Source: Nitrospirae bacterium JdFR-85 (GTDB lineage Bacteria > Nitrospirota > Thermodesulfovibrionia > Thermodesulfovibrionales > JdFR-85). Taken from it: DNA of 64,000 nucleotides. The notes under the pieces were generated by a model that was not told the origin of the DNA, made no database searches, and saw only the letters and a list, made by a program, of their open reading frames with translations. Positions within the stretch are counted from its first letter, which is position 1, and each line of letters starts with the position of its first letter. Shown piece after piece: positions 9,896-24,137 of the stretch. The position numbers and the translations under genes are program-made. The DNA is taken from positions 1 through 64,000 of the forward strand of contig MTOU01000027.1 in the NCBI GenBank assembly GCA_002011745.1, in the 5' to 3' direction.

Positions 9896-11869
9896 TTAAC
9901 CCCTGATACTTATATGAAGATTCTTTTTTTCAAAAAGCGATTTTAGATGGGGAAAGGAGTCCTTCATATGAGGTATATGCATTGCCTGCATAAATTCCCT
10001 TTCAAAGTCGGGCTCAACCGCAATCTCCATGAATTCCACCCATCTTGCCCTCTCAGATGCCTCTCTTCTTTTCTCCCTGTTCAGAAGGGCCATTCTCGCT
10101 CCATCACCTGCTGCATTGCCCACTGCATAGACCCTCTTAATATCACAATCAGGAAACATTCCCAATGTAAGTGCAGATTCTCTGTCAATATAACTGCCAA
10201 AGGCACCTGCAAGTATGACTCTATCCAACTTCTGTATCCCCATCTTCTTCATCATCAGTTTTGCACCTGCATAAAGAGCTGCTTTTGCCAACTGCAGCGC
10301 CCTCACATCTGCCTGTGTTATTGTAATATCAGTTCCGATTGATGTCTCCTCGGCCCAGGCCAGCACATACTCTGGTTTGCCATCAGAGTCGAGTCTGATC
10401 CTGGGGGTATCCAGTCCCTTAACAAACTTGCCTGTTTTATCAATTATTCCTGCCTTAAACATCTCTGCAACCGCATCAATGATGCCTGAACCACAGATAC
10501 CCTTTGCATTCACCTCCTGTAAATAAGTATGCCAGTCTGCCTTACCTATCACCTTGTAATAACATTCCTTAGTTTCAGGGTCAATCCTCACCTTCTCTAT
10601 GGCACCTGGTGCTGCCCGCATACCAAACTTAATCTGGGCTCCTTCAAAGGCCGGGCCTGTGGCACAGGAGGTGGAGCATATCCTCTGCCTGTTGCCAAGC
10701 AGGAGCTCCCCATTTGTCCCTATATCAATAATCAGTACGATTTCATCTTGATTATAAGGCTCCTCAGCTATAAGTACTCCCACATTGTCTGCACCAACAA
10801 ATCCTGCCTCAAGGGGAAGTACATGTAGATAAGCACCAGGGCTTATGTTTATCCCTATGTCCCTTGCCTTGAGATCAATACTGTGTTGAAGGGCAGGTAT
10901 AAATGGTGAACGTCCGATGTACTCAGGATTAAGCCCCAGAAATATGTGGTGCATTGCGGTGTTGAAAACCACTGTCATATCCACTATGGCAGTCCCTCCG
11001 TCTTTCCCATCAGTCCTCAGGTCTGCAGTCACATTCCTGATAATCTCATTCAGGCCTTCAATTATTGCAGACTGCATCTTCTGTAGCCCTTCAGGATTGG
11101 TCATTGCATAGGTTATGCGGGACATAACATCCTCTCCATAAGGTACCTGTGGATTCATCATTGATTCGGTATTAATAACCTTACCAGTGTTGAGGTCACA
11201 GAGATAACCTACCACTGTGGTGGTTCCTATATCCACGGCAATTCCATAGGAGTTTTCAACAAAACCAGGTTCTACCTTTATCACCTCTCTGTCCATCCAG
11301 ACTGATACAGTTGCCCTCCACTGTCCTTTCCTCAGGACATCTTGGAGTTCCTTCAGTGCATAATAGTCAAAGGAGAGCCCTTTAAGACCGTATTTTTCCT
11401 CAAGGAAATCCAGTACCCTCTCCATGTCACCAGTAGTCATCTCCTCTAAGGAGGGAGGTTTCAGTTCAATGTTGTATTTTTTTACTGCAGGGTCAAGGGT
11501 TATGGAGAGTTCCTTTGCCGCCTTTCTGACCACCTGTTTGCCTGCCCTTGATCTTTCAGGAACGAATATCTTTAAGTCTCCATGTATCTCTGCTGCACAG
11601 GCAAGCCTTATATTAGGTCCATCCTCTGGTTTGATATGTTTGAGTTCCTCCCCTGTAATGGGTGACAGGTGATGCATACCAGATTCAATATTATCCTTCT
11701 CAAAGAACCCTACCTCTACTCTCACCTTACACTTTCCACATACCTTCTTGCCTCCACAGAGCCCTTCAATATCCACACCGAGTACCTGGGCAGCCTCAAG
11801 AAGGGTCTTCCCTTCCTGTATCTCGCCTCTTCTTCCAGCAGGCTGGAAAATCACCCTGTGTCTCTTCAT
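9896..11869 (-). CDS. Reductive activator of corrinoid proteins (RACE; 2Fe-2S plus ASKHA domain)
   Basis: A 657-residue two-part protein. The N-terminal ferredoxin has a 2Fe-2S ligand set CGGKKVCGKC plus a later Cys (Cys38, 44, 47, 91). The rest is a DUF4445-type ASKHA ATPase: YGIAVDIGTTTVVGYL near residue 210, a second phosphate site LIIDIGTNGELLLG, and ILAGAFGSYIDRESALTLG near the C-terminus. RACE proteins use ATP to reduce inactive cob(II)alamin on corrinoid proteins to cob(I)alamin. The gene carries its own GGGAGGT site. It follows a strong hairpin that separates it from the methyltransferase genes upstream, so its expression may be partly uncoupled from theirs. Confidence 0.93.
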   Translation of the reverse strand: MKRHRVIFQPAGRRGEIQEGKTLLEAAQVLGVDIEGLCGGKKVCGKCKVRVEVGFFEKDNIESGMHHLSPITGEELKHIKPEDGPNIRLACAAEIHGDLKIFVPERSRAGKQVVRKAAKELSITLDPAVKKYNIELKPPSLEEMTTGDMERVLDFLEEKYGLKGLSFDYYALKELQDVLRKGQWRATVSVWMDREVIKVEPGFVENSYGIAVDIGTTTVVGYLCDLNTGKVINTESMMNPQVPYGEDVMSRITYAMTNPEGLQKMQSAIIEGLNEIIRNVTADLRTDGKDGGTAIVDMTVVFNTAMHHIFLGLNPEYIGRSPFIPALQHSIDLKARDIGINISPGAYLHVLPLEAGFVGADNVGVLIAEEPYNQDEIVLIIDIGTNGELLLGNRQRICSTSCATGPAFEGAQIKFGMRAAPGAIEKVRIDPETKECYYKVIGKADWHTYLQEVNAKGICGSGIIDAVAEMFKAGIIDKTGKFVKGLDTPRIRLDSDGKPEYVLAWAEETSIGTDITITQADVRALQLAKAALYAGAKLMMKKMGIQKLDRVILAGAFGSYIDRESALTLGMFPDCDIKRVYAVGNAAGDGARMALLNREKRREASERARWVEFMEIAVEPDFEREFMQAMHIPHMKDSFPHLKSLFEKKNLHISIRG

Positions 11870-19784: not shown

Positions 19785-19823
19785 TTAGCCAAAAATTTTA
19801 AATTATATGTGAGGAGGTGTTTC

Positions 19824-21227
19824 ATGAAAAAGGTATATCTTTTAAGTGTATTTCTCTGGGTGGGAGGATTTTTATTTCCATCCACTCTGATTGCGAAAAG
19901 TGTTGAAATTGACCCATGCATTAAGTGTCATGACACTGTGACACCTGGTATTGTGAAGCAATGGCATGATAGCAAACATAGTAGTGCTGGAGTTGGGTGT
20001 TATGAATGTCATAAAGCAAAAGAGGGTGATCCTTCAGGATATGAACACAATGGTTTCAAGATTACAGTTATCCCCTCTCCAAAATATTGTGGAGGCTGTC
20101 ATCCCAAGGAAGTAGAAGAGAATATTAGGAGCAAACATGCATGGACTGCCTTTTTTGGACCACTAAAACCCTACTATAAGAAGGCAAAAGAGTTAGGTCT
20201 TGACCCTTTGAGTCAAGAGACAGCAAAAAAACTGAATCCCGAAGAGATTGCAAAACGGGCTTTGACACCACTTTATCCTGACAGTGGAGTACTGAAAAGA
20301 ATAGGGCTTCTTGACGACAAAAGTTATTCACATAATAATATTGTTCTTGGCTGTATTCAATGCCACGGCAGTTTTATTATCGCTGAACCAGGGGGCAGAT
20401 TGAAAGGATGGCCTAATGTTGGGATTGGAAGAGTCAATCCTGATGGCAGTCTCGGCTCATGTACATCCTGTCATACAAGACATAGATTCAGTATAGCAGA
20501 GGCAAGAAAACCAGAAACCTGTGGTCAGTGTCATCTCGGTCCTGATCATCCACAGATTGAGATATACGAAGAGTCAAAACATGGCAATATCTATGCTTCC
20601 TCTGGTGAAGAATGGAATTGGGATGTCCCAGCAGGCAAATGGGGACCAAAAGATATTGTAGCACCAACATGTGCTACATGTCACATGAGTGGTTTTGGTG
20701 GTGTGGTGGAGACTACACATAACGTTGGTTCAAGACTTTACTGGGAGCTCCAACCTAAAAAGTCTGTCCCTCAATGGAAAGGCCCAGATGAGGTTGATTT
20801 TGTTATAAAGAGGATACCAGACAAAAAGAAGGCAGAAGCTGGTAGAGCCAGAATGAAGAAGGTCTGTAATCAATGTCATTCCAGAAACTGGACAGATAAC
20901 TACTTTATTGAGTTTGACAAGGTTGTTGAAGATTACAATCGGATATGGGAATATACAGACAACCTACTGAAAAAAGCCTATAAGGAAGGGCTTATCAATA
21001 AGGATAATCCTCTTGATGAGACACCTGAGATAATGCACTATCTGATATGGCATCATGATGGAAGAAGATGGAGAATGGGAGCAAGCATGATGGGACCTGA
21101 CTGGACACATTGGAATGGGGCAGTTGATACTATCATGAATAAGCTCGGTACTATGCTCAATGATCTCGAGATGAGAAAGAAACTCAAGGCGATAGGGGTT
21201 GACTGGAAGGAAATAGAGGTTAAATAA
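19824..21227 (+). CDS. Octaheme c-type cytochrome, hydroxylamine oxidoreductase (HAO) family
   Basis: A 467-residue exported protein: signal peptide in the first 25 residues, then eight CxxCH heme sites (His at 36, 63, 93, 181, 217, 237, 287, 352). Spacing and the tail CNQCHSRNWTD..., TPEIMHYLIWHHDGRRWRMGASMMGPDWTHWNG match the HAO family. HAO proper has a Tyr that crosslinks to the active-site P460 heme; by eye the corresponding C-terminal position is Trp427 (GPDWTHW). That fits the reductive or non-crosslinked branch, proposed to reduce nitrite or hydroxylamine. ATG 19824 follows GAGGAGGTG; no cytochrome maturation or NapC-type partner gene is adjacent. Confidence 0.85.
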   Translation: MKKVYLLSVFLWVGGFLFPSTLIAKSVEIDPCIKCHDTVTPGIVKQWHDSKHSSAGVGCYECHKAKEGDPSGYEHNGFKITVIPSPKYCGGCHPKEVEENIRSKHAWTAFFGPLKPYYKKAKELGLDPLSQETAKKLNPEEIAKRALTPLYPDSGVLKRIGLLDDKSYSHNNIVLGCIQCHGSFIIAEPGGRLKGWPNVGIGRVNPDGSLGSCTSCHTRHRFSIAEARKPETCGQCHLGPDHPQIEIYEESKHGNIYASSGEEWNWDVPAGKWGPKDIVAPTCATCHMSGFGGVVETTHNVGSRLYWELQPKKSVPQWKGPDEVDFVIKRIPDKKKAEAGRARMKKVCNQCHSRNWTDNYFIEFDKVVEDYNRIWEYTDNLLKKAYKEGLINKDNPLDETPEIMHYLIWHHDGRRWRMGASMMGPDWTHWNGAVDTIMNKLGTMLNDLEMRKKLKAIGVDWKEIEVK

Positions 21228-21280: not shown

Positions 21281-22549
21281 CTATTTAAGGGCGCGGTGGG
21301 CGATATCTCTTCTGTAGTGTATCCCTTCAAAGTATATCTTTTCTATAGCCTCATAAGCACGGTCTCTTGCCTCTTTTATATCTCTTCCAAGAGCGGTTAC
21401 TCCAAGCACTCTACCACCTGCAGTGATGAGTCTACCATTGTCATAGCTGGTGCCGGCATGAAAGACCACAACATCCTCCATCTTCTTAACTTCATCAAGT
21501 CCTTCAATTGGTTTCCCCTTCTCATACTTTCCAGGATATCCTCCAGAGGCAGCAACTACACATACTGAAGCATCAGGTCTCCATTGAAGAGAGGTCTTTG
21601 ATAGAGACTCTTCTGTTATGGCTAAAAAAACCTCCAACAGATCTGACTTCATTCTCATCATAATTGGCTGTGTTTCAGGATCACCAAAACGGCAGTTAAA
21701 TTCTAATACATAAGGCTCATTGTCTCTGATCATGAGCCCTGCATAAAGGATTCCCTTGTATTTCAATCCCTCCTTTCTCATACCTTTTATTGCAGGCTTC
21801 ATTATCTTCTCCATTATTTTTCTCTCCACCTCGGGGGTAACGACAGGTGCAGGACTGTAGGCTCCCATACCCCCAGTGTTAGGACCTTCATCATTGTCGA
21901 ACACACGCTTATGGTCTTGGGAACTTACCATAGGAAGTATATATTCTCCATCTGTAAACACAAGATAGGATGCCTCTTCACCTTCCAGTGCCTCCTCAAC
22001 CACCACTCTCTCTCCAGCCTTCCCAAAGACCTTTTCTTTCATTATCCTCCTCAATGCCTCAATAGCCTCATCCACTGTCTTTGCAACAACGACTCCCTTG
22101 CCTGCTGCGAGCCCGTCTGCCTTTATCACTATAGGGGCTCCTTTCATTCTTATATATTCTTCTGCATGTAGATATGAAGTGAAGACCCTGTACTCAGCAG
22201 TAGGTATTCCATACCTTTTCATAAAATCTTTAGCAAATACCTTGCTTGCTTCAATCTGTGCTGCATCTTTTGTGGGTCCCACTATTCTTAGACCTTCCCT
22301 TTCAAAGGCATCTACTATTCCATGGGCAAGGGGTTCTTCTGGTCCTACAACTGTGAGGTCTATCCACTCATATTTAACAAAGTTTACAAGCCCATTATGG
22401 TCCTTCGGAGATATATCAATGCATTCTGCAATCTCAGATATTCCTGCATTACCTGGGCAGCAGTATATCTTGTCTACTCGGGTACTCTGAGCAAGTTTCC
22501 AAACCAATGCATGTTCTCTTCCTCCTGAACCTATAACAAGAACCTTCAT
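21281..22549 (-). CDS. purD: Phosphoribosylamine-glycine ligase PurD
   Basis: ATP-grasp enzyme of purine biosynthesis joining phosphoribosylamine and glycine. The 422 residues give the standard length: N-terminal VLVIGSGGREHALVWKL, the KADGLAAGKGVVVA ATP-binding loop, DHKRVFDNDEGPNTGGMGAYSPAP, and EFNCRFGDPETQ with metal ligands. It heads a minus-strand run after purH-N and the protoglobin gene (9 bases downstream of the latter), so it is likely cotranscribed with the purH fragment and shares purine-regulated expression. Start ATG 22549. Confidence 0.97.
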   Translation of the reverse strand: MKVLVIGSGGREHALVWKLAQSTRVDKIYCCPGNAGISEIAECIDISPKDHNGLVNFVKYEWIDLTVVGPEEPLAHGIVDAFEREGLRIVGPTKDAAQIEASKVFAKDFMKRYGIPTAEYRVFTSYLHAEEYIRMKGAPIVIKADGLAAGKGVVVAKTVDEAIEALRRIMKEKVFGKAGERVVVEEALEGEEASYLVFTDGEYILPMVSSQDHKRVFDNDEGPNTGGMGAYSPAPVVTPEVERKIMEKIMKPAIKGMRKEGLKYKGILYAGLMIRDNEPYVLEFNCRFGDPETQPIMMRMKSDLLEVFLAITEESLSKTSLQWRPDASVCVVAASGGYPGKYEKGKPIEGLDEVKKMEDVVVFHAGTSYDNGRLITAGGRVLGVTALGRDIKEARDRAYEAIEKIYFEGIHYRRDIAHRALK

Positions 22550-22558
22550 TAAGACCTC

Positions 22559-23452
22559 CTATCTTCTCTGTTCTGTCTTTACTACAAGCCAATAAACTAT
22601 TCCAAGCACAAAAATTGCAGCAACCAGGTAATAAGATACCATTATCTTCTCATGTTTGAGAGTCATGATCATAAGGTCTCTTATAAAGGCCACAAGGGCA
22701 ACACCTATAAATACACTAATATTAAACCTGCCTCCTTTTAGATGCTCTATCTCTGTATTCATAAGCTCTATCAGTATCCAGAGAATAAGTAATGAACCCA
22801 AGGCAGAGATAATTCCATAACTGATATTGTTCTTGGCAAATATATTAATAACATCATAGAAGAACAGACCAGCCACTCCAAGGGTAATAAGGATAAGTGC
22901 TAATACAAGTACAAGGTTCATTGTACTTGAAAAGCTTTCAGCGAATCTAATAAGAAAGCTCTTTATTCTTAATGCAGTGGAGTACTGGATAAGTTCTTCT
23001 TCTATGTATGAACTTGTAATTATATCAAGATTAATATCCAGCATTTTATTCAGTGATTCCTTGAGCTGGGTTCTCTGGATCTTATCTTCGATCTCTTCTG
23101 AAAGAATATCCATCAAGATACTCCTTATAGTATTCATGGAGACACTTACAAAATGGGGTTCTATCTTTAAAGAAGCGTGTTTTTTACCTACTTTTATAAG
23201 ATACCAATAAAAGTCTTTATTGTAAGGTCCTGTGAAAAGCTTAATTAGCCATTCCTTATGGTGTTCTGAAAGGTCTGGATAGGCATCCAACTTCTCGATA
23301 ATATGCTGTTCTCGTGTATTTCTTATTCTTTCTTCAAGTGTCTGTACAATCCTGTTTAAACTGTCTTTAACTATAGGGTAGAGGCTTCTTACTTTTTCTT
23401 CATCCTGTGTGGTGAGATTATAATTCTTTTTAATTTTTCTGAAAGAAACCAT
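22559..23452 (-). CDS. Globin-coupled membrane protein: protoglobin-like sensor fused to PsiE-like membrane domain
   Basis: Residues 1 to about 165 are helical and resemble protoglobin/globin-coupled sensor domains: LYPIVKDSLNRIVQTLEERI, HHKEWLIKLFTGPYNKDFYWYLIKVGKKHASLKIEPHFVSVSMN. The His in VGKKHASLKI is placed like the proximal heme ligand, and KEWLIKLFTGPYNKDFY is the family's F-helix lead-in. Residues about 175-290 hold four hydrophobic segments resembling PsiE (phosphate-starvation-inducible membrane protein). Such a globin-to-PsiE pairing suggests oxygen, NO or CO sensing coupled to a membrane output. It lies between purH-N and purD, an unexpected place. Heme binding is inferred. Confidence 0.65.
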   Translation of the reverse strand: MVSFRKIKKNYNLTTQDEEKVRSLYPIVKDSLNRIVQTLEERIRNTREQHIIEKLDAYPDLSEHHKEWLIKLFTGPYNKDFYWYLIKVGKKHASLKIEPHFVSVSMNTIRSILMDILSEEIEDKIQRTQLKESLNKMLDINLDIITSSYIEEELIQYSTALRIKSFLIRFAESFSSTMNLVLVLALILITLGVAGLFFYDVINIFAKNNISYGIISALGSLLILWILIELMNTEIEHLKGGRFNISVFIGVALVAFIRDLMIMTLKHEKIMVSYYLVAAIFVLGIVYWLVVKTEQRR

Positions 23453-23453
23453 C

Positions 23454-24053
23454 CTATTCCTCTATTGTCTTCTTCAGATACTCTGCAATCATTGCATCAT
23501 ATTTAGAGGTTGTTGTAAATACCTTCTGGGCAAGCATTGCTCTGGTTTTATAACTTATCTGACCTCCCAGCCCCACCATCTCTTCCCTTATCCTCTCATA
23601 ATCAGCAGGGTCTATCACCACAGCTACAGAGACAAAATTCTTTGCAGCGGCTCTGAGCATGGTGGGACCTCCAATATCAATATTCTCAATCGCCTCCTGA
23701 AAGGTAACACCCTCCTTAGAGATTGTCTTCTCAAAGGGATATAGATTCACAACCACCATATCTATGGGTTCGATTCCATGCTCCTTGAGGGTCTGCATAT
23801 GTTCTTCATTATCTCTCAGCGCCAGCAGTCCTGCATGTATTTTGGGGTGAAGGGTTTTGACTCTCCCATCAAGTATCTCTGGAAAACCTGTATACTCTGA
23901 TACCTCAATAACAGGAATCCCTGCCTCTTTTAGTGTTTTTGCTGTACCACCAGTGGAGAGAATCTCCACCTCCATATCATGGAGCGCCTTTGCAAAGTCT
24001 ACAATTCCTGTCTTGTCAGAAACACTTATAATTGCTCTTTTTACCCTTGACAT
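23454..24053 (-). CDS. purH: IMP cyclohydrolase domain of PurH, stand-alone
   Basis: About 199 residues covering only the MGS-like IMP cyclohydrolase half of Pur[62 protein letters not shown] and [17 protein letters not shown]. The AICAR formyltransferase half (about 300 further residues) is absent, and the next gene begins at once, so this is either a natural split enzyme or a truncation. In a split system the formyltransferase (a separate PurH-C or PurP-like protein) would be elsewhere. ATG 24053 with GGAGG 5 bases upstream is preferred to TTG 24065. Confidence 0.9.
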
Positions 24054-24137
24054 AACTGCCTCCAATCTGCCTCATTTTATTGACTCAGTGATTTTATCAT
24101 CTTGCCTTCAAAGAGGTAAAGGCTTTAAGATTATACT

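Follow-up and report, generated by a model that had tools for sequence, protein, structure and literature searches.

The analysed window is a stretch of 64,000 nucleotides from Nitrospirae bacterium JdFR-85, and its reverse strand carries an operon of three genes, purH (N-terminal half), a globin-PsiE gene and purD; its neighbours are a pilC/gspF gene that diverges from it and a cytochrome gene that converges on it. The genes, domains and key codons are as follows.

23454..24065, reverse strand: N-terminal half of purH (IMP cyclohydrolase), 203 aa, first gene of the operon, separated by 1 bp from the globin gene; named by Pfam and NCBIfam.
22559..23452, reverse strand: protoglobin-PsiE membrane protein gene, 297 aa; open reading frame with ATG start, Pfam matches and full-length relatives.
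22994..23443, reverse strand: globin domain, about residues 4-153; Pfam Protoglobin and overlay of the AlphaFold2 model on 2w31.
23258..23260, reverse strand: codon of His65, site E11, the predicted sixth haem ligand; aligned with His66 of 2w31.
23177..23179, reverse strand: codon of His92, the putative proximal haem ligand F8; aligned with His93 of 2w31 and conserved.
22571..22918, reverse strand: PsiE-type four-helix membrane domain, residues 179-294; Pfam PsiE, hydrophobicity and AlphaFold2.
21281..22549, reverse strand: purD, last gene of the operon, after a gap of 9 bp; NCBIfam TIGR00877 over cut-off.

The sequence-only reading had described a globin-like N-terminus ahead of a PsiE-type membrane domain, and both halves are borne out by the profile searches and the structure prediction that it proposed as checks. 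The window protein matches Protoglobin (PF11563, residues 4-153, 70.5 bits, E 2.1e-19) and PsiE (PF06146, residues 179-294, 82.2 bits, E 4.5e-23), far over the curated Pfam cut-offs of 25 and 23.9 bits, respectively, and all 29 members of alignment A1 contain both domains, with PsiE as the non-globin C-terminal domain fused to the globin. A frame-shift or contig artefact is rejected for this gene, as the frame is open in dozens of relatives. No HK, GGDEF or MCP domain in the window protein matches above cut-off in Pfam or NCBIfam, NCBIfam has no model for the globin-PsiE protein, and the PsiE domain would be the output. The AlphaFold2 model of the whole protein, built from a 29-row alignment, reaches a mean pLDDT of 79, most of the globin scoring close to 90. 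Within the limits of prediction, this excludes the lack of a globin fold that would have told against the earlier reading. The top structural match of the globin by Foldseek and VIA-align is 2w31, the globin of GsGCS, the globin-coupled sensor of Geobacter sulfurreducens (Z 23.5, rmsd 1.2 Å over 149 residues), with AfGcHK, HemAT, DosC, BpeGReg and protoglobins ranked under it, and 2w31 is also the best sequence match among solved structures by phmmer (E 1e-24), with AfGcHK next.

The PsiE part of the protein shows four hydrophobic peaks, and in the AlphaFold2 model the last globin helix (residues 124-157) is continuous but for one residue with a helix of 48 residues (159-206), and four helices in all, starting with this one, make up the membrane part. 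Residues 156-297 modelled alone from 60 sequences again give four helices with a mean pLDDT of 85, and the PsiE domain alone has no significant Foldseek match in the PDB (best E 4.4), which does not by itself make the fold a new one. By the positive-inside rule, the Lys/Arg-bearing loop HLKGGRF and the C-terminus KTEQRR suggest that both ends of the protein are cytosolic.

The proximal histidine that had been placed in the motif VGKKHASLKI is confirmed by alignment, as His92 corresponds to HisF8 (His93) of 2w31 and recurs in all but one of 94 relatives. The lone exception is a Deferribacterales copy (L114), in which Gln replaces the proximal His; an in-frame TAA lies within the match (10001-10894), and this copy is possibly decaying or haem-free. 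On the distal side, passages of PMC4476040 and PMC3287990, citing Pesce et al. 2009, give His66 (E11) as an unusual sixth haem ligand in 2w31. The window copy has His at both E11 and F8, and a bis-His haem is predicted for it because His65 occupies the E11 site that provides the sixth ligand in 2w31. Its B10 residue is Glu, where AfGcHK and GsGCS have Tyr. Across the 94 proteins, the E11 site is occupied by L, Q, H, V, I, R or F and the B10 site by Y, S, N, H, E, D, F or others, and with such wide variation a single shared gas ligand is therefore unlikely; ligand chemistry probably differs among lineages that share the globin-PsiE architecture. An association of aliphatic E11 with Tyr B10, with which 81 of the 94 proteins agree, was dropped as an established co-variation because the tree holds only three independent pairs. 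The earlier proposal of a gas-responsive protein stays conditional, as a pocket without the usual O2-binding Tyr B10 and with a predicted bis-His haem makes redox or NO as likely as O2. Judged from its residues, the window copy is more likely a hexacoordinate globin of the redox/NO/CO type than an O2 sensor.

By the tested features of sequence and fold the window protein is a globin-coupled sensor, and its best match and ligand positions place it in the Geobacter type. GsGCS shares the aligned HisF8 and HisE11 and is the best match by both sequence and structure, although the two globins are only about 30% identical and Tyr at B10 of GsGCS is replaced by Glu in the window protein. AfGcHK, HemAT, DosC and BpeGReg have the same globin-coupled-sensor fold, likewise at the N-terminus of a larger protein. 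AfGcHK is a globin-coupled kinase, HemAT a chemotaxis transducer, and DosC and BpeGReg are diguanylate cyclases, whereas the output side of the window protein consists of a four-helix membrane domain alone. This domain resembles the PsiE family (e.g., E. coli PsiE) in its score over the Pfam cut-off and in its four predicted membrane helices; the classic PsiE is a small stand-alone protein. The fusion that the sequence-only reading contrasted with the usual sensor outputs is real, but the pairing is not unusual among relatives and probably not new, the window protein belonging to the little-studied Geobacter-type membrane globin-coupled sensors. The architecture is seen in the GsGCS homologue L134, the one member of the GsGCS-like set tested with Pfam, which has Protoglobin and PsiE and a globin 61% identical to that of GsGCS; full-length GsGCS itself lies outside the searched genomes. 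What looks new is the lineage-specific pocket together with the conserved purH-purD seat of a Geobacter-type membrane globin sensor. A literature search found no paper on the globin-PsiE fusion and no experiment on any full-length member, and most subscription papers lay outside its coverage, so that novelty is not proven.

The PsiE half is the better conserved part of the protein, with a mean pairwise identity of 0.55 vs 0.41 for the globin, and all 94 sequences share Trp225, Glu229, Glu234 and Arg258 without exception. An inert anchor is not expected for this reason, and a role of the PsiE part as a mere anchor was judged unlikely; invariant charges within the membrane or close to it point to an active domain. 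The leading interpretation, to which an even chance is assigned, is a Geobacter-type membrane-anchored globin-coupled sensor of haem redox state or gas in which the PsiE domain is the working output. The cytosolic globin would bind b-type haem via His92, with His65 probably filling the sixth site in the ferric state of the window copy. Reduction followed by NO or CO, or less surely O2, would need to displace His65, and loss of the His65-Fe bond would shift the globin. The last globin helix, nearly continuous with the first long membrane helix, could then relay the change to the PsiE domain and so alter the activity of that domain or its partner binding. With its invariant Glu229, Glu234 and Arg258, the PsiE domain may serve as a gate for a solute or as a docking site for a partner. 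We infer haem binding, the ligand, the direction of signalling and any effect on purine supply, and the sole link to purine supply is the operon shared with purH and purD.

Relatives of the gene are found in 61 of 101 related genomes, in more than 30 of these 61 across the full length. PsiE-only matches in the 101 genomes are short frames of about 140-220 aa, and no other PsiE fusions are seen among the matches there. The host genome has one stand-alone PsiE of 146 aa (L002 1426-1866, contig C11), a paralogue of the membrane domain that is 25% identical to the PsiE part of the window protein and overlaps the end of a CobB-like gene by 4 bp. A scan of named genomes with an alignment query yielded 67 loci, mainly in Nitrospirota (Thermodesulfovibrionales and others) with some in 'Deltaproteobacteria' and one in Deferribacterales, while a single-sequence query yielded none. 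The GWC2_42_11 class ('Deltaproteobacteria') has a match in 57 of 63 genomes, nearly all of full length, and five genomes from the same phylum as this class have globins 56-64% identical to GsGCS in open frames of 307-380 aa. No relative was found in viral contigs.

In the Nitrospirota, 31 of 66 loci (the window plus 65 named ones) have the globin-PsiE gene immediately between purH on its upstream side and purD on its downstream side, most commonly with 1 bp behind purH and a 4-bp overlap into purD; a cultured Thermodesulfovibrio, strain N1 (L099), is among the carriers of this operon. The outer neighbours of the trio vary: upstream lies carB, radC or pilC, and downstream purE, smpB, a DUF89-like gene or GGDEF. 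Several of the gene names here come from reading the sequences. Because the trio stays while its outer neighbours change and its junctions are often 1 bp and -4 bp, the three genes very likely share one transcript. The earlier placement inside a purine gene run holds in a narrow form, with a purH half-gene and purD at the two sides of the gene, but there is no longer purine cluster. In 14 relatives without the gene, purH and purD are directly adjacent, which marks the gene as a separate and dispensable insertion into the purH-purD operon, one retained despite large sequence divergence. Purine synthesis can do without it, since the gene also occurs outside purine operons and relatives cleanly lack it. 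The purH gene is split in the host, with the AICAR transformylase half apart (G000 C1:168292-169101, 440-aa frame), and half-length purH genes are also present in the operons of L052-L057, L059, L068, L070 and L075.

Elsewhere the gene has other companions. In 18 of 20 loci of the GWC2_42_11 class it comes after ndk, commonly with rlmN beyond it and mtnP further on, and in one Nitrospirota clade it lies beside CBS and HPP genes instead. A NorCB-like pair, named from a sequence motif and Pfam COX1 with all curated NorB models under cut-off, adjoins the gene in three loci (L067, L071, L094). In the window, a multihaem cytochrome with weak likeness to hydrazine dehydrogenase/HAO (19809-21227, forward strand) is convergent with purD, and three loci of another class (L146, L150, L152) have homologues 35-38% identical to it at no more than about 4 kb from the globin-PsiE gene. 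A general tie to nitrogen-oxide genes was rejected, as the neighbour listing shows a minority pattern only. The earlier tie to nucleotide synthesis is stronger than the window alone could show, with the purH-gene-purD order kept across many families and the ndk group besides, although strong synteny does not prove a function; the accompanying idea of phosphate stress comes from the family name PsiE alone.

The position of the gene may owe nothing to its function. The sensor could be real and its purH-purD seat inherited from a Nitrospirota ancestor and kept since operon order changes slowly, an account that falls just short of an even chance and can hold together with the sensor reading. Purine context follows the protein tree, with 6 changes vs 21.8 in shuffles, purH and purD adjoin in relatives that lack the gene, and in other clades it has a different location, all of which fits simple inheritance; that the trio stayed together while its outer neighbours reshuffled does not, nor does the second, distant group in which the gene follows another nucleotide gene, ndk.

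It is unlikely that the protein is instead a membrane-tethered haem enzyme or electron carrier, with the bis-His globin serving as a b-type cytochrome or an NO- or nitrite-detoxifying globin and PsiE tethering it near respiratory proteins. The predicted bis-His pocket without Tyr B10 in the window copy would suit such a role, as would the NorCB-like genes by some relatives and the HAO-like multihaem cytochromes found no more than 5 kb away, both in the window and at L146, L150 and L152. Nitrogen-oxide neighbours, however, occur in a minority of loci and mostly in one clade, a reductase partner is neither fused nor regularly adjacent, and the stronger conservation of PsiE than of the globin would be odd for an anchor.

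Direct control of purine synthesis or nucleotide traffic by O2, NO or redox state, for example through PsiE recruiting PurD or PurH to the membrane by binding or transporting a purine-related solute, is quite improbable, for although conserved operons with purH and purD in Nitrospirota and with ndk, often with mtnP further on, in another class speak for it, many family members lie elsewhere, ndk-rlmN is a common gene pair in general, and the case is one of guilt by association only. To our knowledge, no interaction of a globin-PsiE protein with purine enzymes and no output partner for it have been described. That the haem globin couples the cytoplasmic redox or NO/O2 state directly to purine nucleotide supply via the membrane output domain is very doubtful; if true, it would be an undescribed layer of control on purine synthesis and the first known job for the PsiE family.

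The family unites two puzzles in about 100 genomes: the long-standing PsiE family has no function assigned to it, and for the Geobacter-type membrane globin sensors the globin structure is solved while the papers searched describe no output. The invariant in-membrane Glu/Arg set, the natural variants at the haem-ligand sites and the tight purH-X-purD operon with its known enzymes offer handles, which makes it possible to test what PsiE does and whether haem sensing is linked to the supply of nucleotides. The Geobacter-like loci, unlike the window gene, lie outside purH-purD and have other neighbours, e.g., HypF/HypD-like genes, as named from reading the sequences. In three of these loci (L175, L176, L178) a RidA-like gene is located just upstream of the globin-PsiE gene; RidA touches the chemistry of phosphoribosylamine, which is the substrate of PurD.
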